From a virus: 31,164 nucleotides of DNA. Shown one piece after another: positions 3,212 to 31,164 of this stretch (its first letter is position 1; each line of letters starts with the position of its first letter). The stretch covers positions 1-31,164 of IMG/VR virus record IMGVR_UViG_3300032895_000397. One strand, written 5' to 3'. Position numbers and translations under genes: made by a program. The notes beneath the pieces are model-generated. The model did not search any database, was not told the origin of the DNA, and worked only from the letters and a program-made list of their open reading frames with translations.

Positions 3212-3324
3212 CAGGTTGTCATTTTCAGGTTGTCACCCCAGGTTGTCGGGCACCTAAGCCGTTGATTTTTCGAGAACGGGTTGGATTTTGGCAGGTTGTC
3301 ACCCCGTTTCAGGTTGTCACCCCC
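3212..3324. repeat. Five CAGGTTGTC repeats upstream of the methyltransferase operon
   Basis: CAGGTTGTC occurs at 3212, 3226, 3239, 3292 and 3310, all in the same direction. Three copies continue as ACCCC and one as GGG. The copy at 3239-3250 contains TTGTCGGG, which is the inverse of the CCCGACAA form at 2486-2493, so this cluster is related to the left one in opposite orientation. The last copy ends only a few bases before the ATG at 3330. It is a candidate operator controlling the methyltransferase operon. Confidence 0.65.
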
Positions 3325-3329
3325 GTCTA

Positions 3330-4847
3330 ATGCATCTCCCAACGCAGATTGAGCTTCGCCGGGTCGCACAACTTCTGCCCGACGCGCGCAACAGCCGCGT
3401 TCATTCGGACGAGCAGGTTGCCCAACTCGCCAGCTCCATCCGTGAATTTGGGTGGACCAACCCGGTGCTGATCGGCCCAGACGGGACCATCATCGCCGGG
3501 CACGCGCGAGTGCTGGCCGCCCGACTGCTCGGAATGGCCGAAGTTCCGGTGATCGTGCTGGAGCACCTGACCGAGACGCAACGGCGCGCCTTGGTCATCG
3601 CCGATAACAAGCTGGCCCTCAACGCGGGTTGGAACGACGAGATGCTTCGTCTGGAAGTCGAGGCCCTCCAGGAGGACGGTTTCGACTTGAACGTGGTCGG
3701 CTTCAACGACGACGAGTTGCGCGTCCTGCTCGCGGATGGAATCGGCGGCGCGATCGCGGGCGACGCGGCGGGCGAAGAAGAGATTCCGGAAGCGCCGGTC
3801 AATCCGGTCACTCTCGCCGGCGACGTCTGGGTGATCGGGCGCCACCGGCTGATCTGTGGCGACTGCCGCGATCCCCGCGTGGTGGCGCAGGTCCTCGAGG
3901 GCGCCCGCGCGAACGTCGTGATCACGTCACCGCCATACGCGACGCAGCGCGAGTACGACCCGTCGAGCGGCTTCGAGCCGGTCCCGCCGGAAAAATATGT
4001 CGGATGGTACGCGCTGGTGGCGGCGAACATCGGGTCGATCCTCGCCGACGACGGTTCCTACTTCTTGAACATCAAAGCTCACGCCGACGACGGCGAGCGG
4101 AATCTGTACGTGATGGACCTGGTGCTTGCGCATCGGCGCATCTGGGGCTGGCGATTTGTGGATGAGTTCTGCTGGCGCAAGACCGACAACGGCGTTCCGG
4201 GCGGATGGGGCAATCGGTTTAAGAACGCGTGGGAGCCGATCTTCCATTTCTGCCGCCAGTCTGAGATCAAGTTCCGGCCGAAGGAGGTCGGGCACGTTTC
4301 CGAGGACTGCTTCGATTACTCACCGAATAATCCGAAGTCGACGTCGGGCAGCGGCCTGCTCGGAACCGGCGCGCGCGGCGACGCGGCGGGCCAGCCTGGC
4401 GCCGATGACAGCGGCGGTCGGTTTACCGGCATCGCGCGCCCGAGCAACGTGATCGAAGTGAAGACGGAGAGCAGCCAGGGATCGCACTCGGCTCCGTTCC
4501 CGCGGGTGTTGGTCGAGTTTTTCGTGAAAGCGTTTTCCGATGCCGGCGACGTGGTGTTCGATCCGTTCCTGGGGAGCGGAACCACGATGGCCGCGGCGCA
4601 TGTGCTGGGGCGCACCGGATGCGGCTGCGAGATTTCGCCGGCATACTGCGACGTGATCCTGCATCGGATGAAGGAATTGACGGGCGAGGAACCGGTGCTC
4701 GTTGCCACGGGCAAGTCGCTGACCGAAGTCGCGCAGGAACGCGGCGCCACCGGCGACCAGGTGGAGAATCCGCGGCTGAAAGACAGCCGCCGGATTCAGC
4801 ACGACGGTGTGCGGCCGAACTACGGTCCGAGGCGGAAGGCGTCATGA
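3330..4847 (+). CDS. ParB-domain DNA methyltransferase, TSPPY type (505 aa)
   Basis: This is a site-specific DNA methyltransferase with an N-terminal ParB/Srx-like domain (residues about 3-110, including the HSDEQVAQLASSI and IIAGHARVLAA blocks). The catalytic motif IV is TSPPY (S200-Y203). The AdoMet-binding motif I is DPFLGSGTT, starting at D411. The order IV then I marks the beta class. TSPPY is commonest in N4-cytosine enzymes but also occurs in adenine enzymes, so the modified base is uncertain. The track-length frame could begin at a TTG (3288), but that start lies inside the repeat cluster; ATG 3330 fits the conserved domain start. Its end overlaps the next gene as ATGA. Phage enzymes of this kind are thought to protect DNA from restriction. 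Confidence 0.9.
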   Translation: MHLPTQIELRRVAQLLPDARNSRVHSDEQVAQLASSIREFGWTNPVLIGPDGTIIAGHARVLAARLLGMAEVPVIVLEHLTETQRRALVIADNKLALNAGWNDEMLRLEVEALQEDGFDLNVVGFNDDELRVLLADGIGGAIAGDAAGEEEIPEAPVNPVTLAGDVWVIGRHRLICGDCRDPRVVAQVLEGARANVVITSPPYATQREYDPSSGFEPVPPEKYVGWYALVAANIGSILADDGSYFLNIKAHADDGERNLYVMDLVLAHRRIWGWRFVDEFCWRKTDNGVPGGWGNRFKNAWEPIFHFCRQSEIKFRPKEVGHVSEDCFDYSPNNPKSTSGSGLLGTGARGDAAGQPGADDSGGRFTGIARPSNVIEVKTESSQGSHSAPFPRVLVEFFVKAFSDAGDVVFDPFLGSGTTMAAAHVLGRTGCGCEISPAYCDVILHRMKELTGEEPVLVATGKSLTEVAQERGATGDQVENPRLKDSRRIQHDGVRPNYGPRRKAS

Positions 4848-6094
4848 TCGATCTATCGCGTCTGGTTGTCCAGATCTGGACAATTGATCGGCTGCTGCCC
4901 TACATCCGCAACGCTCGCACGCACAGCGACGAACAGGTGGCGCAGGTCGCCGCGAGCATTCGGGAGTTCGGGTGGACGAACCCGATTCTCGTCGCGGGCG
5001 ATGGGACGATCATCGCCGGCCATGCGCGATTGGCGGCTGCCCGCAAGCTGAAGATGACCGAGGTGCCGGTAATCGTTCTCGATCATCTGACCGAAGCGCA
5101 GCGGCGTGCGCTGGTCCTGGCGGATAACAAGCTCGCGCTGAACGCCGGTTGGGACGAAGATATGCTGCGCGTCGAGTTGCAGTCGCTGCAGGAGGGCGGG
5201 TTCGATCTTGACGTGGTGGGCTTCTCGGACGAAGAGTTGGAGGACCTGCTGCGTGATCCGGAAGAGGCCAATGCCGGCCTGACCGATGAGGATGCCGTTC
5301 CCGATGAACTGGAGCGCGCGATCAGCGTGCCTGGTGACGTCTGGATCATGGGTCCGCACCGACTGCTCTGCGGCGATGCGACACAGATGGATGTGGTCGA
5401 GAAGGTTCTCGCTGGTGGCTTGGCCGACATGGTCTTCACCGATCCGCCGTACAACGTGGCTTATGAGGGCAAGACCGCGAAGAAATTGACGATCGGGAAC
5501 GATGCGCTTGGCGAAAAGTTTTACGAGTTCCTGCGGGAGGCGTGTGCGAACATGCTCGCGGTTTCCAAGGGCGCGATCTATATCTGCATGTCTTCATCGG
5601 AGTTGCACACACTCTTCCGCGCGTTCACCGACGCGGGCGGGCACTGGTCCACTTTCGTTATTTGGGCCAAGCATCATTTCACGCTGGGCAGATCCGATTA
5701 TCAGCGCCAGTATGAGCCGATCCTGTACGGCTGGCGGAAAGGCGTTGATCACTTCTGGTGCGGCGGTCGCGATCAGGGTGACGTGTGGTTCATCAAGCGG
5801 CCAATGGCAAACCTGGAGCATCCGACCATGAAACCGGTCGAACTGGCCGAGCGCGCGATTCGCAACAGCAGCAAGTCTCGCGACACGATTCTCGATGTGT
5901 TCGGTGGATCGGGAACAACGCTGATTGCGTGCCAGAAGTCGGGACGCCAGTCGCGGCTGGTTGAGATGGAGCCGAAATACTGTGATGTCATTATCCGGCG
6001 ATGGCAGGAATTCACAGGGAAACAGGCCGTTCTTGAAAACGACGGACGGACATTCGATCAAGTGTCAAGTGAACGCGGAGCACTGGCGGCGTGA
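4844..6094 (+). CDS. ParB-domain DNA methyltransferase, DPPY type (416 aa)
   Basis: This is a second ParB-methyltransferase fusion and a clear paralogue of the gene before it: the N-terminal ParB blocks (HSDEQVAQVAASIREFGWTN, ADNKLALNAGW) are nearly the same. The catalytic motif IV is TDPPYNVAY (D200-Y203), typical of N6-adenine enzymes. Motif I is DVFGGSGTT from D351, so it too is beta class. The start at 4844 is set by the ATGA overlap with the upstream stop; an in-frame upstream start at 4619 would only extend it into the neighbouring gene. It lacks the insert of roughly 60 residues between the motifs that the first enzyme has. The two may have different target sites or work as a pair. Confidence 0.9.
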   Translation: MIDLSRLVVQIWTIDRLLPYIRNARTHSDEQVAQVAASIREFGWTNPILVAGDGTIIAGHARLAAARKLKMTEVPVIVLDHLTEAQRRALVLADNKLALNAGWDEDMLRVELQSLQEGGFDLDVVGFSDEELEDLLRDPEEANAGLTDEDAVPDELERAISVPGDVWIMGPHRLLCGDATQMDVVEKVLAGGLADMVFTDPPYNVAYEGKTAKKLTIGNDALGEKFYEFLREACANMLAVSKGAIYICMSSSELHTLFRAFTDAGGHWSTFVIWAKHHFTLGRSDYQRQYEPILYGWRKGVDHFWCGGRDQGDVWFIKRPMANLEHPTMKPVELAERAIRNSSKSRDTILDVFGGSGTTLIACQKSGRQSRLVEMEPKYCDVIIRRWQEFTGKQAVLENDGRTFDQVSSERGALAA

Positions 6095-23862: not shown

Positions 23863-25065
23863 ATGCGTAAACTGCTTACTTTCCTTGCCTGCGCTTTGCT
23901 CTGGCTGCTCTGCGCACCGCTGTGCCGGGCGCAGCCGGTGCTGACGACGATCCAGGACACGCTCTACAACCTCGACGGGTCGCTCATGAACGGCAGCCTG
24001 ATCGTGACAACTCCGGCGTTCTCCGTGGCAGGCGTGCCGATCGCCCATGGCACGCACACGTTCCCGATCACGAACGGCGTGGTCAACATCCAGCTTGCGC
24101 CGACGGATCACGCGAATCCCGCCGTCACGTACACAGTGGATACCGTTTCGAACGGGTTGGGGGCAGCAAGCGTGTGGTCGGTGCCGACGCTGCCATCGGC
24201 GCAGTGCGCGTCGTCTTCGCATTGCACCATCGCCGAGGTTACCGTCGCCTCCGGCGTGGGTCCGACGCTGCTGTTGAATCCGAGCCAGATTTCGACGGGC
24301 GCTTCGCAGTCGGGTCAATTCTTGTGCAACGTGGTCGGCATCGTCGGCTGGTGCAACGCCGGCGGCGGGATCTGGGGATCGATCACCGGAACGCTCTCCG
24401 CGCAGACGGACCTCGAAAACGCGCTGAACGCGAAACAGAGCGCCCTCGGTTTCACGCCCGAGAACGTCGCGAACAAGGACGCGATCGGCGGATATGCGGG
24501 CCTGGACTCCGGTGGCAATCTCAAAGTGAGCACGGAGTGTCCGACGGCGTCGGCATCGCAGAAGGGCTGCCTCTCGGCGGGGGATTGGGCGGCGTTTAAC
24601 GGGAAAGTGCAATCCGCCACGGTGACTCTCTCGGCTGCGCAGGTGTCGAATCTTTTCACCACTTCGTATCCTTTGGTTCCGGCACCAGGAAACGGCACCG
24701 TTCTTCAGTATCTTGGGCACGTCGTCAATTGCGTCAGCGGAGCGACGCCTACCGTGCTGATAGCCGGCTTCGGCGAAATCGGGCAAGTGGGATACGGCGC
24801 CGGAGCCTTCACCCAGAACACGATAACTCCTGCTACGGGCGGCTACCTCAATACCCCGAATGGACCATGCGCTGCAAACGCGTTAATCGTTGACATGGGC
24901 ACGGCGGGCAATTACGAGTTCGGGAACGGTCTGGCGAGCGCCGCCGTGATCAATCAACCGTTGTCGTTCGGAGCAGTTTGCGTCAGTGGCAGTTGCGCGT
25001 TATCGAGCGGGACCACCACGATGACGATCACTACGTTCTACCGCATGATTTCCGGGGTTCAATAA
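23863..25065 (+). CDS. Tail-fibre-like protein with a Sec signal peptide (400 aa)
   Basis: Residues 1-24 are a classical Sec signal: RK, a Leu-rich core (LLTFLACALLWLL), then CRA before Gln, with cleavage likely after Ala24. Residues about 25-170 are a beta-rich domain with paired cysteines. Residues about 175-260 are a fibre-type segment: GSITGTLSAQTDLENALNAK, TPENVANK, GGYAGLDSGG, and GCLSAGDWAAFNGK. The remainder is Gly/Thr-rich beta structure with more Cys pairs. A phage tail gene normally lacks a signal peptide. The ATG has an AAGGAT site 8-13 nt upstream. It may be exported, anchored or merely homologous to a secreted host protein. Confidence 0.72.
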   Translation: MRKLLTFLACALLWLLCAPLCRAQPVLTTIQDTLYNLDGSLMNGSLIVTTPAFSVAGVPIAHGTHTFPITNGVVNIQLAPTDHANPAVTYTVDTVSNGLGAASVWSVPTLPSAQCASSSHCTIAEVTVASGVGPTLLLNPSQISTGASQSGQFLCNVVGIVGWCNAGGGIWGSITGTLSAQTDLENALNAKQSALGFTPENVANKDAIGGYAGLDSGGNLKVSTECPTASASQKGCLSAGDWAAFNGKVQSATVTLSAAQVSNLFTTSYPLVPAPGNGTVLQYLGHVVNCVSGATPTVLIAGFGEIGQVGYGAGAFTQNTITPATGGYLNTPNGPCAANALIVDMGTAGNYEFGNGLASAAVINQPLSFGAVCVSGSCALSSGTTTMTITTFYRMISGVQ

Positions 25066-25108: not shown

Positions 25109-25525
25109 ATGCCCGGAAATATCCAGAACGCTGCACCAAGCGGCGTGATGCCCGCGTCGCTATGCACAGCGTTCACGGAATTGCGCGAATTTGTTCAGCT
25201 CCAGAACCAATATCACGATGGCACGGTTCAGCGGTCGCAACTCGCGCAGACGTCCCGGCGGACGTTTCGGCTCAGCAAACGATTGACCGCATCTCTGCTC
25301 GCAGCGCTGTACAGCTTCTGGGTCGCGCAGAACGCCGGCCTGACGCCGTTCGTCTTCTACAATCCGTTCGACGTGGCGTCGGGCCAGCAGATCGGCAGCA
25401 ATTACGATTCGACCGGCAATAACACGCAGGGTCGCGTGACGGTGGTGTTTCGCGGCAACTGGGCGGAGGCGACGGACGTCGCGCGGACCAATATGCAGGG
25501 AATAGAATTGGTTGAAGTAGGGTGA
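25109..25525 (+). CDS. Small tail protein near the tail tip (138 aa)
   Basis: The protein has a short N-terminal linker and a folded core (LREFVQLQNQYHDG, then SRRTFRLSKRLT, LYSFWVAQNAGLTPFVFYNP, and VTVVFRGNW), similar in style to the domain at the start of the next tail gene. A role as a gpM-type minor tail protein linking tube and tip is likely. The ATG has GAGAGG about 10 nt upstream. The next tail gene in the same direction begins only at 26905, the space being taken by two minus-strand genes. Confidence 0.6.
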   Translation: MPGNIQNAAPSGVMPASLCTAFTELREFVQLQNQYHDGTVQRSQLAQTSRRTFRLSKRLTASLLAALYSFWVAQNAGLTPFVFYNPFDVASGQQIGSNYDSTGNNTQGRVTVVFRGNWAEATDVARTNMQGIELVEVG

Positions 25526-25543
25526 ATCGATCTGATCCGCCAA

Positions 25544-26275
25544 TCAGTTCTCCCACCACTGGGTCGAGTTCTTGGAGCCAACCGCTGCATCGTTCTCTAC
25601 CACTTGGGGACGTCGACCGGCCCCCTTTCGCCAGTGTTTGGGAAGCGCCAGGCCCCATCGGAGTGGGAGATCGTCTGGAAAGCGCTCCATAAGGCGGAGG
25701 TCCAGGTGTCGGCAACGAAGGCGCTCGTTGAACTCGCTTTCGAGTTTCTCAAACTCGTCGGCGATCACGCTTTCGGGTGGAAACAGAATGCCAAATCGCG
25801 CTCGGTCGTGACGCCGCAAGGCCATCCTGATCGCCGGAATCAAATCGAGATCTGCACTCACTAGGAAGGCTCTATCGAAACTTTGATCGATTGCGTTCTC
25901 AACGAGCCGAATTGCGATGTTGACGTCGGTTTGCTTTTCCGTGAGTTTGGTGTCCTTCCCGCACCTAGCGCACCGCATAGGTTCGTCGCAGGCTCTGCAT
26001 CTGACGCTGCGCTCACGAAATTGTCCCTTAACTATCTCTGCGCCAGCAATCTTCTCCATAGCCAGAAGGTGTAACTTCTGGCGATGATTCGCGCCGCGGT
26101 TTCGTGGCGAGATGTCGGAAGTAAAGTATAGCACCCGTACCTGCGCGCCGGGGCTATAGTTTTGAATCGTCTTCGTCCAGTTGCACCAGCCGTAGGGGTA
26201 CCAATCCTTGCCTTTGCTTGTCTCGAAGAAATTGAATCCGTCGATGTATGCCGATACCCTAATGTCGCATGCCAT
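25544..26275 (-). CDS. NYN/PIN-like nuclease with zinc ribbon insert (243 aa)
   Basis: This is a predicted metal-dependent RNase of the NYN (LabA/DUF88) family. Motif 1 is YIDGFNFF (D12, N15). Motif 2 is EKQTDVNIAIRL (D117). Motif 3 is FLVSADLDLIPAI (D142, D144). These are the conserved acidic residues of NYN domains. Between them lies a zinc ribbon, C93-x2-C96-x5-C102-x2-C105, seen in some LabA-like proteins. The C-terminal tail of about 60 residues is basic and disordered-looking. The gene is minus-strand, A+T-richer than the tail genes, and lies 36 nt after the stop of the nuclease gene upstream. A TATGAT lies 6 nt before the ATG, so it may also be read alone from a leaderless promoter. 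Confidence 0.85.
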   Translation of the reverse strand: MACDIRVSAYIDGFNFFETSKGKDWYPYGWCNWTKTIQNYSPGAQVRVLYFTSDISPRNRGANHRQKLHLLAMEKIAGAEIVKGQFRERSVRCRACDEPMRCARCGKDTKLTEKQTDVNIAIRLVENAIDQSFDRAFLVSADLDLIPAIRMALRRHDRARFGILFPPESVIADEFEKLESEFNERLRCRHLDLRLMERFPDDLPLRWGLALPKHWRKGAGRRPQVVENDAAVGSKNSTQWWEN

Positions 26276-26281
26276 GGTCAG

Positions 26282-26287
26282 ATCATA
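26282..26287 (-). promoter_or_regulatory. Putative leaderless -10 element (TATGAT) of the NYN gene
   Basis: On the minus strand TATGAT lies 6 nt before the ATG at 26275. No strong -35 is visible; the T-run TTTTTT (26305-26300) precedes it. Confidence 0.4.
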
Positions 26288-26311
26288 ACCAATCCTGCAA
26301 AAAAGCTGCCG

Positions 26312-26815
26312 CTAGTGCGTTTCGACTCCTTGTGTTTTTGTCATGGGCGACTGTGACTCGTCCCTCCGCCAAATGCACCGGCCCGAGGACTTGAATTCCG
26401 ACACACTTAATGTACTTCTGTCTGATCTTGCCTTCGATCCCGGTTTACGAAGCGCGAGTTCGATCGCGGCGCGATCTGCCTCGTAAATCGCGTATGGGAA
26501 GAACCACTCATCCATAAGAACAGCCAGCGCAACTGTCCACTCGTTTTTCAGATTGATTCGCCCAAGCCTGTAGGAACCTTCACGCTTTCGATGTCGGATC
26601 GTCTTGCTTTTAATTTCGATAGTAACGTCCCCTCGCTGTGCGTCAAAAGGCGCTCTGGCGTCGCTGAGTTTTAGGCCCAAAATGCGAGCTGCCTGGTATT
26701 CGCCCATCTCGCCCGTTATTCCTAGCGGCCTACCGGCTAGTTGCTCGTACTCAATCGCCAGTGGACGAACCGCTTCGAGGATTTCGCCCAAACGCGAGAA
26801 GACTTCAGGATCCAT
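26312..26815 (-). CDS. PD-(D/E)XK-like nuclease (167 aa)
   Basis: A restriction-endonuclease-like core is suggested by E36/E39 in GITGEMGEYQAARILGL, followed by D63 and E67-x-K69 in RGDVTIEIKSK. This is the order E...D-x3-E-x-K of the PD-(D/E)XK fold. The following region (GRINLKNEWTVALAVLMDEW) contains a beta strand and helix as expected. No DNA-binding domain is visible, so a partner may supply specificity. It is the first gene of a minus-strand pair with the NYN gene. The fold call rests on motif spacing and needs structure prediction. Confidence 0.65.
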   Translation of the reverse strand: MDPEVFSRLGEILEAVRPLAIEYEQLAGRPLGITGEMGEYQAARILGLKLSDARAPFDAQRGDVTIEIKSKTIRHRKREGSYRLGRINLKNEWTVALAVLMDEWFFPYAIYEADRAAIELALRKPGSKARSDRSTLSVSEFKSSGRCIWRRDESQSPMTKTQGVETH

Positions 26816-26904
26816 GTGATTTAGTGTTGCGCACTTGCGATCGAGTTGGTACAGCGTTCAGGAATTCACGGTAGAAATCACTCGTCGGTTGAAAGAACTA
26901 ACCT

Positions 26905-29900
26905 ATGTCCGACACCATCGGCCGCATCACCGTCCCAACGGTAGTCAACTCCGGCCAGACATTCCCGCTCACTACGCAGTACCCGTTCGGCTTCTCCGTC
27001 GAGCGCCCGGTGATCGTTCACCGCTTCGGCTCGCTCGACGCCAAACAGGAGCAGCGGTATTACGTCGGCATCGGTCCACGCAAATTCCAGTTCAAGCACC
27101 CGAACTTGAACTGGGCTGAGGTCAACCAGCTCAAGGCGTTTTGGGAGTCGATGCAGGGGCCGTGGCAGGCGTTCACCTACACCGTCCCCAACCCCGATGG
27201 AACGACCAGCAGTGTGCTCGTGACGTTCGAGCAGGCGCCGATTTCGTTCGAGTACCTGCGCAACGCGGCGCAGATCGGACTGAATTTCATCGAGGTCGTC
27301 GATCCGACCGCTGCGCCCTCTTACACGATCAGCTCCACCTGCCTGCGGTTCCCCTCGACCGCGCTCTCCACGGCGCTGCTTTCTGAAGTCCAGCAGATCG
27401 TCCCGCTGGTGCACATCCGCGTCCGCGAATCCGCGGTCGCGGACATTTATCTCTCCGACCGCCGCGTGACCGTCGGCGGGCAGCTTTACCTGCCACGATT
27501 GATCGGGATCGGCGAGGCGGGCTCCGACGTCCTGATCTCCCAGGACATCAAGGGCACTTCCGATAACGTCCGCTTCACGTTCGGTAACGGCGACCGCGTG
27601 ATGACGCAGCTCGCCAACGACACGGACCTGAAGTACGCCGAAATAGACCTGTGCCTTTTCCACGTCAACTCCGGCATCCTGCTGCAACTGTGGAAGGGCG
27701 TCATCCAGAGCTTCACCAGCGATGGCACGCCGATCTTCGCGGTGACGTGCTCGGACGGCTTCTTCCAGATCATGAACCAGTACCCGGAGCGGCAGGTCAG
27801 CCGCCAGTGCTGGAAAACCTACAACGACGGCGTGAACTGCCCCTGGGCCACGCTGGGCGCGAGCGCCGCCGCAGTGACGGCCGCCGGCGGCGATCCCACG
27901 AGTTGCGATTATTACCTCGAATCGCCGAACGGATGTCAGGTTCACGGCATGTCCGCGTATTTCGGCGGGCATCAGGCTGATCCGCAGGGCGTCGTCATCA
28001 AGGATGATTCCACCGGTTTCCTCGGATTCGGACGCAACACCGTCACCGCGACTTCGATCATCTCGGACACGGTGTGGGGACTTGCCCTGCCAGAAATCTG
28101 GTGCAACAGCGGTGGCAACCCGCTCTATGCGTTCATGGCGACCGCGTTGATGGTCGATTACCGCGATGAATCGGGCTATGCGGACTCGCTCGGCATCTTG
28201 AGCGCTGGGCCTCTCGGTGGATTCACCGCGTCGATGGTCGTCACAAACGCGGACGGCTACCGATACGTGGTCGCGCCGATGGTCGACGGCTACACCTGGC
28301 AAGGCTTCCAGGTCAACGGGAATTTGAACGTCACGAAGTACCAGCCGGGATACGGGCTTCGGTACGTCACCGGCAGTGATCCGGCGAACCCGAGCACGGA
28401 TTACTTCTCGCTTGGGCAAGGGACGCCGCAGGTGTGGGAGCCAAATGTTTACGCCGCGGGCACGTCGTCGTGCGAGATTCGCATCGTCAAGTCCACCACG
28501 ATTCAACCGAGCACTCCCGATCAGCACCAGATGACGGTCCCGATCGATTACGGAATGTGGGGTTGGACCTGGGATCAGAGCGGCAATCGCACGGCGGTGA
28601 TGGGGCTGATCAATCCATTTTGGATCGCGGTCAACATGCTGCTGCGCGCGCTTGGCTTGTACGGCGATCCGTCCACCGGCTCAAATCCTGCTGGCGGAAC
28701 CGGACCGGCGTCGTCCGATCAACTCGCCGTGTTCGTGCTGCCCTCGCTGATTGTGGGCGATGGAAGCGGCGCGGCCGAGATCGCCGCAGCCCAAGTGGCC
28801 GCCATCCTCGGAACCGGCACCGAGACGCAGTTCCAGTTTCAGGGAATCATCAGCAGCCAGAAGCCGTTCCGCGATTGGCTCACAGAGGTCCTCAACTGCT
28901 GCCTGGGCTTCTACACCTGGGAGTTCGGGCAGTTGAAGCTCGGCTGTCGGATCAATGCGAGCGCGGTGGATGCGTACACACTCGCCAATTCTCTTTACCA
29001 GACCCTGCGGCTGACGCCGATCCAGGCCGGGTTCGAGCACTTGGTGATCTCGTTCGCCGACGTTGCCTATCAATACCAGGCGAACACGGGTGAGTATTGC
29101 GACAAGAGCCACGCTGCCTATTACGGGCGCGCCGGATCCCCGCTCACCAGCCAGATGCACTCCGTGGGTTGCTCTTCGCTCAGCCAGGCGCTTCGAATCG
29201 CGGCCACGCGCACACGCGAAGAACTCGGCGGTGTGACGCCCGCGGAATGGCGCGACGCGCGCACGGCCGCGTGGCAGACCACGCTTCTCGGCCTCGGCAA
29301 CGAAGTCGGGCAGGTCGTCTCGATGACGCACCCGGACATTCCGGGCGTCCATGGGACGTGCAGCGTGTCAGGCAGCACGGCCACATGGGTGAGCGGCGAT
29401 CCGTGGACCTATGCGGGGACCGCGACCGGAGACACCGAACTGATCAATAAAGAGATCGTGATCGGCGGTTCACAGATGACGATCACTGCGGTCGCCAGCG
29501 ACGGCTCGACGATCACCACGTCTCCAGCACCTCCCAGCGGAACCGGCTTGGCGTTCCAAGTCATCACGATGTGCTTCCGCATCCAGCGCTGGAGCCTGAA
29601 GAAGGACTGGTCGGTGCAGATCGAGGCGCAGACCGTCACCTCTTCAATGTACGACCTGGACGTCGGGCCGAAGCCGATGGACGTGGTGCCTGCGCCGCTG
29701 CCGGCGCTGTTTTATCCAATCCCGCTCGGCCCGGTATGGGCTCCATACCAGGTGCAGGCGTCTTCGAGCGATGCGCTGTATCCCAGCGAGTGGACCTTCG
29801 ATTCCGACCAGGAATACACGACGCTCGCCGACGGCAGCGCACTCGCGAGCCTGATCGTCACCGGCAAGCTTCCGGTGAACGAGTTCAGCGCCACGGGTGC

Positions 29901-31164
29901 GGGCGCGCCGGGAATCGGCTCGATCACGCAGAGCGCGACCGGCGGATCGCTGGCGGCGGACATCACGCTGTGGGTGGCCATTTGCGCGATCGATTCGAAC
30001 GGCCTTCCGTCCGCACCTTCGAATATCGCGATCATCGGAACCGGTGCGGCGGCGGGTGGCACTTTCACGCTCGACAACATCACGTGGCCTGCGGTCGCGG
30101 GGCTCGCTTCTTACGTGCTGTTCGTCGGAACGCAACCTGACCTGATTTGCGCGCAGGCAACCGGCACGTTGACGGCGGGCACGGGCAACACGTACACGCC
30201 CGGATCGATCACGTTCGGTGGGCCAGTGGCGCGCTCGACATGGGCGCTGCCATCGCCGTACGTCGCCAAAGTTCGGATCAAAGCCAAGCTTCTGCTGCAT
30301 TCCGGCGTGGCCGGTGTCGCCGTTACCACCGTCTCGACCAACACGCTGGTTTGTTCTGAACTGGTCGATACCTCCTCAACGCCGTTCAGTCCCGTCGGCC
30401 GCATTCTCTCCGTGATCGGACGGCCCAACGGCAGCACGCCCTTTGCGAGCTTCAACATCACCGCGTTCGTGCCGACCACCGGGACGCTGACTCTTGACCG
30501 CGACCCGACCGGGATCGTGAACATCGGCGACGCAGTGGTCATTCGCAACCAAGCGTCGGGCCTGTCAAGCACACCTACCGCCATCACCCAAGTCACGGAC
30601 CCCGGCTACCAGAACGTCGCGAACAGCTACGGCGGCCTCGCGGCAAGCGCGGAGATCGGCAACCTGATCCGCGTGATCGCTGGCACCGGTCGCGGTCAGC
30701 CGCCGAGCACCATCACGGCGAACACTTCGACGCAGTTGACCTTCCAGCCGCCGCTGCTCATGGACGATACGTCCATCTGGATCGTCGAAGCGCCCACGTG
30801 GAGCTTTCAGGCGGATTCCACCAGTATCGACAACGCGAACCCGCTTACTCCGGTGACCCTCTCGGTGCCCACGGCGAACTTCATCGAACAGGCGATGCTG
30901 ATTGCCGGCTTCACAGTTGACGTGAACGGCAACGAATCTCCGGACGGCGACCAGCCTTTCCGCGAGGACTGGATCTACGGCGAAGTCGGCGCGCCCTCGG
31001 GCGAGATGAAGATCTCGATTCCGGGCACGCTGGCCATAGGAAGCAACCTCGGCCCCGCAGCGTTCTACACCGCCACAGTCTCGTTGCAAAACGGCGTGAC
31101 CTGCATGGTGAAGCAGGCGCCCGTGGGCGCGAACCTCGTCATCCAGGTCTATGCGGGAACCACG
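26905..31164 (+). CDS. Giant fused tail-tip protein, open at the window end (at least 1420 aa)
   Basis: The frame from ATG 26905 to the last base has no stop, which I checked line by line. The 3' end lies beyond the window. Residues 1-150 resemble a gpM-type beta domain (RKFQFKHPNLNW, then FWESMQGPWQAF). Residues 150-350 match the gpL/DUF2163-type baseplate domain and end with C302, C312, C334 and C344, followed by the VHGMSAYFGG segment. In lambda gpL four C-terminal cysteines bind an iron-sulfur cluster. Residues 600-900 resemble the hub part of host-specificity proteins. A fibronectin-type segment lies near 1030-1080 (AIDSNGLPSAPSN, then ASYVLFVGT). The remainder is Ser/Thr/Gly-rich beta structure. 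The GAAAG about 10 nt upstream serves as ribosome site. The fusion replaces several separate lambda genes. Confidence 0.82.
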   Translation, partial: MSDTIGRITVPTVVNSGQTFPLTTQYPFGFSVERPVIVHRFGSLDAKQEQRYYVGIGPRKFQFKHPNLNWAEVNQLKAFWESMQGPWQAFTYTVPNPDGTTSSVLVTFEQAPISFEYLRNAAQIGLNFIEVVDPTAAPSYTISSTCLRFPSTALSTALLSEVQQIVPLVHIRVRESAVADIYLSDRRVTVGGQLYLPRLIGIGEAGSDVLISQDIKGTSDNVRFTFGNGDRVMTQLANDTDLKYAEIDLCLFHVNSGILLQLWKGVIQSFTSDGTPIFAVTCSDGFFQIMNQYPERQVSRQCWKTYNDGVNCPWATLGASAAAVTAAGGDPTSCDYYLESPNGCQVHGMSAYFGGHQADPQGVVIKDDSTGFLGFGRNTVTATSIISDTVWGLALPEIWCNSGGNPLYAFMATALMVDYRDESGYADSLGILSAGPLGGFTASMVVTNADGYRYVVAPMVDGYTWQGFQVNGNLNVTKYQPGYGLRYVTGSDPANPSTDYFSLGQGTPQVWEPNVYAAGTSSCEIRIVKSTTIQPSTPDQHQMTVPIDYGMWGWTWDQSGNRTAVMGLINPFWIAVNMLLRALGLYGDPSTGSNPAGGTGPASSDQLAVFVLPSLIVGDGSGAAEIAAAQVAAILGTGTETQFQFQGIISSQKPFRDWLTEVLNCCLGFYTWEFGQLKLGCRINASAVDAYTLANSLYQTLRLTPIQAGFEHLVISFADVAYQYQANTGEYCDKSHAAYYGRAGSPLTSQMHSVGCSSLSQALRIAATRTREELGGVTPAEWRDARTAAWQTTLLGLGNEVGQVVSMTHPDIPGVHGTCSVSGSTATWVSGDPWTYAGTATGDTELINKEIVIGGSQMTITAVASDGSTITTSPAPPSGTGLAFQVITMCFRIQRWSLKKDWSVQIEAQTVTSSMYDLDVGPKPMDVVPAPLPALFYPIPLGPVWAPYQVQASSSDALYPSEWTFDSDQEYTTLADGSALASLIVTGKLPVNEFSATGAGAPGIGSITQSATGGSLAADITLWVAICAIDSNGLPSAPSNIAIIGTGAAAGGTFTLDNITWPAVAGLASYVLFVGTQPDLICAQATGTLTAGTGNTYTPGSITFGGPVARSTWALPSPYVAKVRIKAKLLLHSGVAGVAVTTVSTNTLVCSELVDTSSTPFSPVGRILSVIGRPNGSTPFASFNITAFVPTTGTLTLDRDPTGIVNIGDAVVIRNQASGLSSTPTAITQVTDPGYQNVANSYGGLAASAEIGNLIRVIAGTGRGQPPSTITANTSTQLTFQPPLLMDDTSIWIVEAPTWSFQADSTSIDNANPLTPVTLSVPTANFIEQAMLIAGFTVDVNGNESPDGDQPFREDWIYGEVGAPSGEMKISIPGTLAIGSNLGPAAFYTATVSLQNGVTCMVKQAPVGANLVIQVYAGTT

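Follow-up and report, generated by a model that had tools for sequence, protein, structure and literature searches.

A BisI-group restriction endonuclease homologue and a putative NYN ribonuclease as cargo of a variable tail-gene junction in a metagenomic phage family

The gene pair and the junction that holds it

The window analyzed here was the whole 31,164-nucleotide stretch of the virus record IMGVR_UViG_3300032895_000397. Two minus-strand open reading frames, claimed by the initial annotation at 25544-26815, were both found to be real and to lie at exactly these positions, where they form the sole cargo of an insert between two conserved tail genes, designated tailA and tailB. The two genes are called DEXK and NYN below, and the features of the locus are the following:

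25109..25525, plus strand: left anchor tailA, encoding a conserved 138-aa tail protein with a weak DUF2460 match
25526..26904: accessory insert of 1,379 bp holding the DEXK and NYN genes
25544..26275, minus strand: NYN gene, an ORF of 243 aa for a HEC-09-like putative ribonuclease
26276..26311, minus strand: spacer of 36 nt between the DEXK and NYN genes
26312..26815, minus strand: DEXK gene, an ORF of 167 aa for a BisI-group restriction endonuclease homologue
26816..26904: divergent intergenic region of 89 bp, upstream of both the DEXK gene and tailB
26905..31164, plus strand: right anchor tailB, encoding a conserved large tail protein (1,420 aa up to the window end) with a weak Phage-tail_3 match

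The common strand and the 36-nt gap suggest that the two genes are probably co-transcribed. A promoter for the cassette would have to sit in the 89-bp region 26816..26904, in which a consensus scan recognized none; the consensus scan for promoters and terminators performed near chance level. The GC content of the insert was 53.7%, compared with a mean of 60.9% for the window, and is among the lowest of the window, since only one of 298 sliding windows of equal size had a lower value. Neither gene was found in any of the 41 related phage records, which, together with the low GC of the insert, is consistent with a recent acquisition of the pair.

Searches with the tailA and tailB proteins yielded about 150 loci in related IMG/VR records. 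The distance between the two genes ranged from an overlap to 4.7 kb (quartiles 712/1168/2226 bp), while the control junction between TMP and tailA was mostly invariant (quartiles 4/6/6.5 bp). Empty sites (≤22 bp) were represented by 10 classes in 15 records, and filled sites by 55 different inserts between 159 and 4,693 bp long, most of which hold one to five genes, in either orientation. In a close relative, whose flanking proteins are 85% and 90% identical to those of the window, just TAG separates the two coding sequences. Neither flanking repeats in common nor site-specific boundaries were apparent when the insert edges were inspected by eye. Just before tailB, three loci (L264, L289 and L250) carry the 138-aa tail gene a second time or as a 3' remnant, and such copies around some inserts hint at exchange via homologous recombination between them. 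Upstream, the plus-strand gene at 23863-25065 of the window is an optional tail-region gene, found in just 14 related loci, which makes the TMP-tailA junction a second, rarer variable site.

The cargo of the tailA-tailB junction includes recognized defense systems, as matched by PADLOC:

L214 insert: LmuA (1.3e-17) and LmuB (2e-88), Lamassu
L355 insert: NsnA/PD-T4-2_A (NsnA at 4.6e-65)
L215 insert: TIR-TM (2e-60)
L298 insert: TIR with HEAT-like repeats
L239 and L235 inserts: PD-T4-6-like kinases (PD-T4-6 at 2.2e-40)
L238 insert: PD-T4-7
L207 and L297 inserts: HEC-05 with GmrSD_N
L233 insert: PD-Lambda-2_B
L247 insert: UvrD/GajB-like
L251 and L226 inserts: PLD proteins

PADLOC matches to NYN, ankyrin, PLD and kinase domains are no proof of defense. 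Many cargo genes had no defense match, and some are plainly of another kind, such as an LCM methyltransferase-like gene. The insert at L233:7411-12104 carries genes resembling thymidylate synthase, aGPT-Pplase3/ADDT and PD-Lambda-2_B, which may together form a set for thymine hypermodification.

Tyrosine integrases were detected in 11 of the 41 related records, mostly fragmentary, so that the phage family probably includes temperate members; none was identified in the window record itself. The tailA gene was absent from all four genomes reached through the collected loci. Among 396 genomes from the phylum to which the L065 genome belongs (Bryobacterales), a single one had a distant relative (46% identity), and the tailA-tailB interval there contained plus-strand ORFs of phage-structural appearance, without defense-like cargo. 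The host group of the phage family is perhaps the Acidobacteriota.

Identity of the two predicted nucleases

The DEXK protein matched the PADLOC profile mREase_II at 7e-23 and was 38% identical to Pam7902I over its whole length (162 aligned columns). Rather than an unnamed PD-(D/E)XK nuclease, it is thus a full-length homologue of a characterized enzyme. Pam7902I is m5C-dependent and cuts GCS^SGC bearing several m5C (PMC8281217). It was present in the collected set as a plasmid homologue (L005 4001-4489; WP_054068722.1), which is labeled "hypothetical protein" in the plasmid record despite having been characterized. A profile built from 46 relatives of the DEXK protein reached the structures of Eco15I (5.9e-7) and NhoI (6.7e-6); single-sequence searches of the PDB returned only noise. 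DUF6998 was dropped as a possible identity (E 0.26, below the cut-off). In the AlphaFold model (pLDDT 90.7) the protein adopts the BisI-family PD-(D/E)XK fold without a sensor domain. The eight best Foldseek matches of this model were NhoI/Eco15I, with E-values of 1e-6 to 1.6e-5 and moderate TM-scores of about 0.5, followed by PvuII. The initial remark that the protein has no DNA-binding part was right, and this is to be expected, because BisI-family enzymes have no separate sensor domain (PMC11347163). The homology of the DEXK protein to Esp638I/Pam7902I-like, BisI-group modification-dependent restriction endonucleases is therefore secure. A requirement for a partner methylase was also considered, since relatives adjoin ParB-methyltransferase genes, and was set aside because the characterized homologues act alone on m5C DNA.

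In the alignment of the 46 relatives, the catalytic motif of the DEXK protein was located at E36/E39...D58-x8-E67-x-K69. The motif first proposed, D63-x3-E67-x-K69, started from the wrong aspartate, D58 being the invariant one. All of the invariant residues (E36, E39, D58, K69, R130, R133 and W149) are kept. The core of Pam7902I, consisting of E39, D59, (Q/E)72, K74 and D106, corresponds to E39, D58, E67, K69 and D102 of the DEXK protein, where E67 replaces a glutamine found in 44 of the 46 relatives (E in 2). The Pam7902I mutants E39A, D59A, K74A, D98A and D106A are dead and Q72A is weakened (PMC8281217). The acidic residue matching D98 is absent from the DEXK protein, in which T94 occupies this position; the alignment of 46 has 43 D, 2 E and 1 T there, the threonine being that of the window protein alone. 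Since D98 is essential in Pam7902I, T94 lowers the claim of an active enzyme, but not that of homology, D98 being an activity requirement of Pam7902I and not an established marker of the family. With T94 the enzyme may have lost or altered its activity, and cleavage dependent on 5mC/5hmC is putative.

The 243-aa protein matched Pfam NYN at 1.2e-5, above the curated cut-off, PADLOC HEC-09 at E 1.4e-33 over residues 6-170, and also phrog_7929. Used alone as a query, it found no relatives among genome and viral contigs, and alignment queries were needed. The acidic motifs initially reported (D12, D117, D142 and D144) were borne out by an alignment of 46 relatives: E113, K114, D117, D142 and D144 never vary, and D12 and N15 occur in every aligned sequence covering them. 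The AlphaFold model (pLDDT 84.7, with a C-terminal tail of about 30 residues at low confidence) gave only unspecific Rossmann-like folds in Foldseek until the matches were re-ranked, when VPA0982 (Z 15.0) and the mouse (13.6) and human (13.4) MARF1 NYN domains stood above the next unrelated row (8.6). The MARF1 NYN domain is a demonstrated endoribonuclease (PMC6294520). On these grounds the protein has an intact NYN (PIN-like) ribonuclease fold and is probably an RNA-cutting enzyme, with a putative ribonuclease or antiviral role. The Cys4 ribbon insert described at first consists of four real cysteines (C93, C96, C102 and C105) in a CxxC-x5-CxxC loop, but it does not define the family: at least four cysteines were present in this loop in only 2 of the 46 relatives, and at least two in 22, as expected of a variable loop that is not typical of the family. 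In the passage of PMC12988326 dealing with HECs, these are presented as Hma-embedded candidates, several with tested antiviral activity; HEC-09, a candidate family, is not named in that passage.

Relationship between the two genes

For the analysis of gene neighborhoods, the best 80 loci per scan were collected with flanks of about 6 kb. Relatives of the DEXK gene were represented by about 120 loci, from plasmids, genomes (80 loci) and viral contigs, and those of the NYN gene by 86. Within these flanks and these best 80 loci per scan, none of the approximately 120 DEXK loci had an NYN neighbor, none of the 80 viral NYN loci had a DEXK neighbor, and the two genes were together in none of the approximately 200 loci besides the window. 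Neighbor names were read by eye, save for the methylases of the L002 type, which were searched for in the window. The DEXK relatives were located behind tandem ParB-methylases in phages (e.g., L002), behind a primase-like gene, or alone. In the phages L002, L016 and L021 the relative lies directly behind the ParB-methylase tandem; a tandem of two ParB_N + N6_N4_Mtase genes is also present in the window (3288-4844 and 4619-6091, plus strand), 20 kb away from the DEXK gene. In L113 and L115-L120, which look like P4-type satellites, the relatives lie 454-463 bp behind a primase/helicase-like gene. The NYN relatives were single genes in phage structural regions, and some of these lone relatives (L146-L161, L172, L178 and L180-L182) are on the strand opposite the adjoining tail-like genes.

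The two genes had been interpreted as a two-component defense module, in a combination that could not be named. The nuclease identities and a defense-like role are supported by the matches to HEC-09 and mREase_II, by the homology to Pam7902I and by the defense genes among the other cargo of the site. The two-component part fell by the refuting condition that had been set for it, as the pair was never together in the approximately 200 other loci (best 80 per scan) or in the 41 related records. Each component can be named, and the combination was indeed encountered nowhere else in the loci examined. In the loci examined, then, the pair is not a conserved module; the DEXK and NYN genes probably represent two separately acquired single-gene candidates, and they would act independently.

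We consider it likely that the two genes at present occupy a hypervariable accessory/defense ("moron") hotspot in a phage family with temperate members, each gene acting alone. The homology, folds, catalytic residues, hotspot and lack of co-occurrence were observed in the analysis; expression in the lysogen, the substrates, the antiviral effect and the independence of both genes are what we infer. In this phage family from soil or peat metagenomes, the cassette fills the tailA-tailB slot, is oriented against the late operon, is probably read from its own promoter, and would be expressed in the lysogen. The DEXK enzyme would work alone, as a dimer with no methylase partner, on incoming DNA with 5-methyl- or 5-hydroxymethylcytosine, restricting the modified DNA by cutting or binding it, and the NYN endoribonuclease, also alone, would cleave RNA during infection; competing phages would be excluded in both cases.

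Other explanations were weighed against the same observations. The DEXK gene could be a decaying passenger, with at most the NYN gene functional, as suggested by T94, which stands where Pam7902I has an essential aspartate, by the loss of other conserved residues (R71 to K, N131 to S) and by the rare Gln-to-Glu change in the QxK motif (2 of 46). This is unlikely, however, since the 167-aa frame is intact with a confident fold, the invariant E36, E39, D58, K69, R130, R133 and W149 are all retained, and E in place of Q restores a canonical ExK. A service to the phage itself, the nucleases degrading host DNA/RNA or processing phage DNA/RNA during the lytic cycle, would be in line with the presence of relatives of both genes inside phage structural regions; it is nevertheless distinctly improbable, given that the cassette is on the strand opposite the late operon, is dispensable and swapped for unrelated cargo in relatives, and has homologues on plasmids and chromosomes too.

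The least probable explanation is a true two-component module in which a DNase and an RNase work jointly, the DEXK protein, for instance, sensing modified DNA and the NYN protein executing shutdown. Their location on the same strand, 36 nt apart and as the only occupants of one low-GC insert, is what such a module would present, but no other locus held both genes (flanks of about 6 kb, best 80 per scan), the relatives of each occur singly or beside unrelated neighbors, and related phages lack the two. Beyond the preferred reading of an accessory hotspot with independent genes, there is close to an even chance that the junction serves as a defense hotspot throughout this family, whose hosts would be uncultured soil bacteria, that anti-phage systems as yet undescribed make up many of the unclassified single-gene inserts, and that the DEXK protein is a diverged BisI-group enzyme in which the loss of the acidic residue reflects altered specificity or binding-only restriction.

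Comparison with known systems

These results name both nucleases and remove a false two-gene module, replacing it with a bounded location. The tailA and tailB genes are usable as anchors to pull compact candidate defense systems from soil phage metagenomes, and the replacement of an essential aspartate by T94 offers a sharp test of the limits of drift in the BisI group. The DEXK and NYN proteins themselves are further members of families already known.

The DEXK protein resembles Pam7902I and Esp638I (PMC8281217) in its full-length similarity (38%), in its single domain of about 160 aa requiring no methylase partner, and in keeping the equivalents of E39/D58/K69/D102. It differs from Pam7902I in having E67 for Q72, T94 for D98 and a shorter spacing from D to ExK, and from both enzymes in being encoded by a phage gene, with a putative specificity. 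With NhoI and Eco15I (PMC11347163) it shares the profile and fold match, the PD-(D/E)XK core and the lack of a separate sensor domain; the identity in structural alignment is low (about 16-20%), Eco15I has an extra C-terminal domain, and GCNGC specificity should not be assumed for the DEXK protein. The NYN protein, in turn, is like HEC-09, VPA0982 and the MARF1 NYN domain in its fold and acidic residues, and unlike them in its four-Cys loop, its low-confidence tail of about 30 residues and the putative nature of its activity.

No description of the tailA-tailB hotspot was found in the open-licence papers searched, which is weak evidence of its novelty. Compared at the level of sequence, the site may be likened to the antiviral hotspots of P2 and P4 phages (Rousset 2022, PMC9122126), as in both cases about 1-5 kb with high turnover and many defense genes lies between two conserved genes. 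By contrast, the P2/P4 hotspots sit beside the cos site or between the repressor and integrase genes, whereas the site described here is located between tail genes of the morphogenesis module in an uncultured soil phage family.
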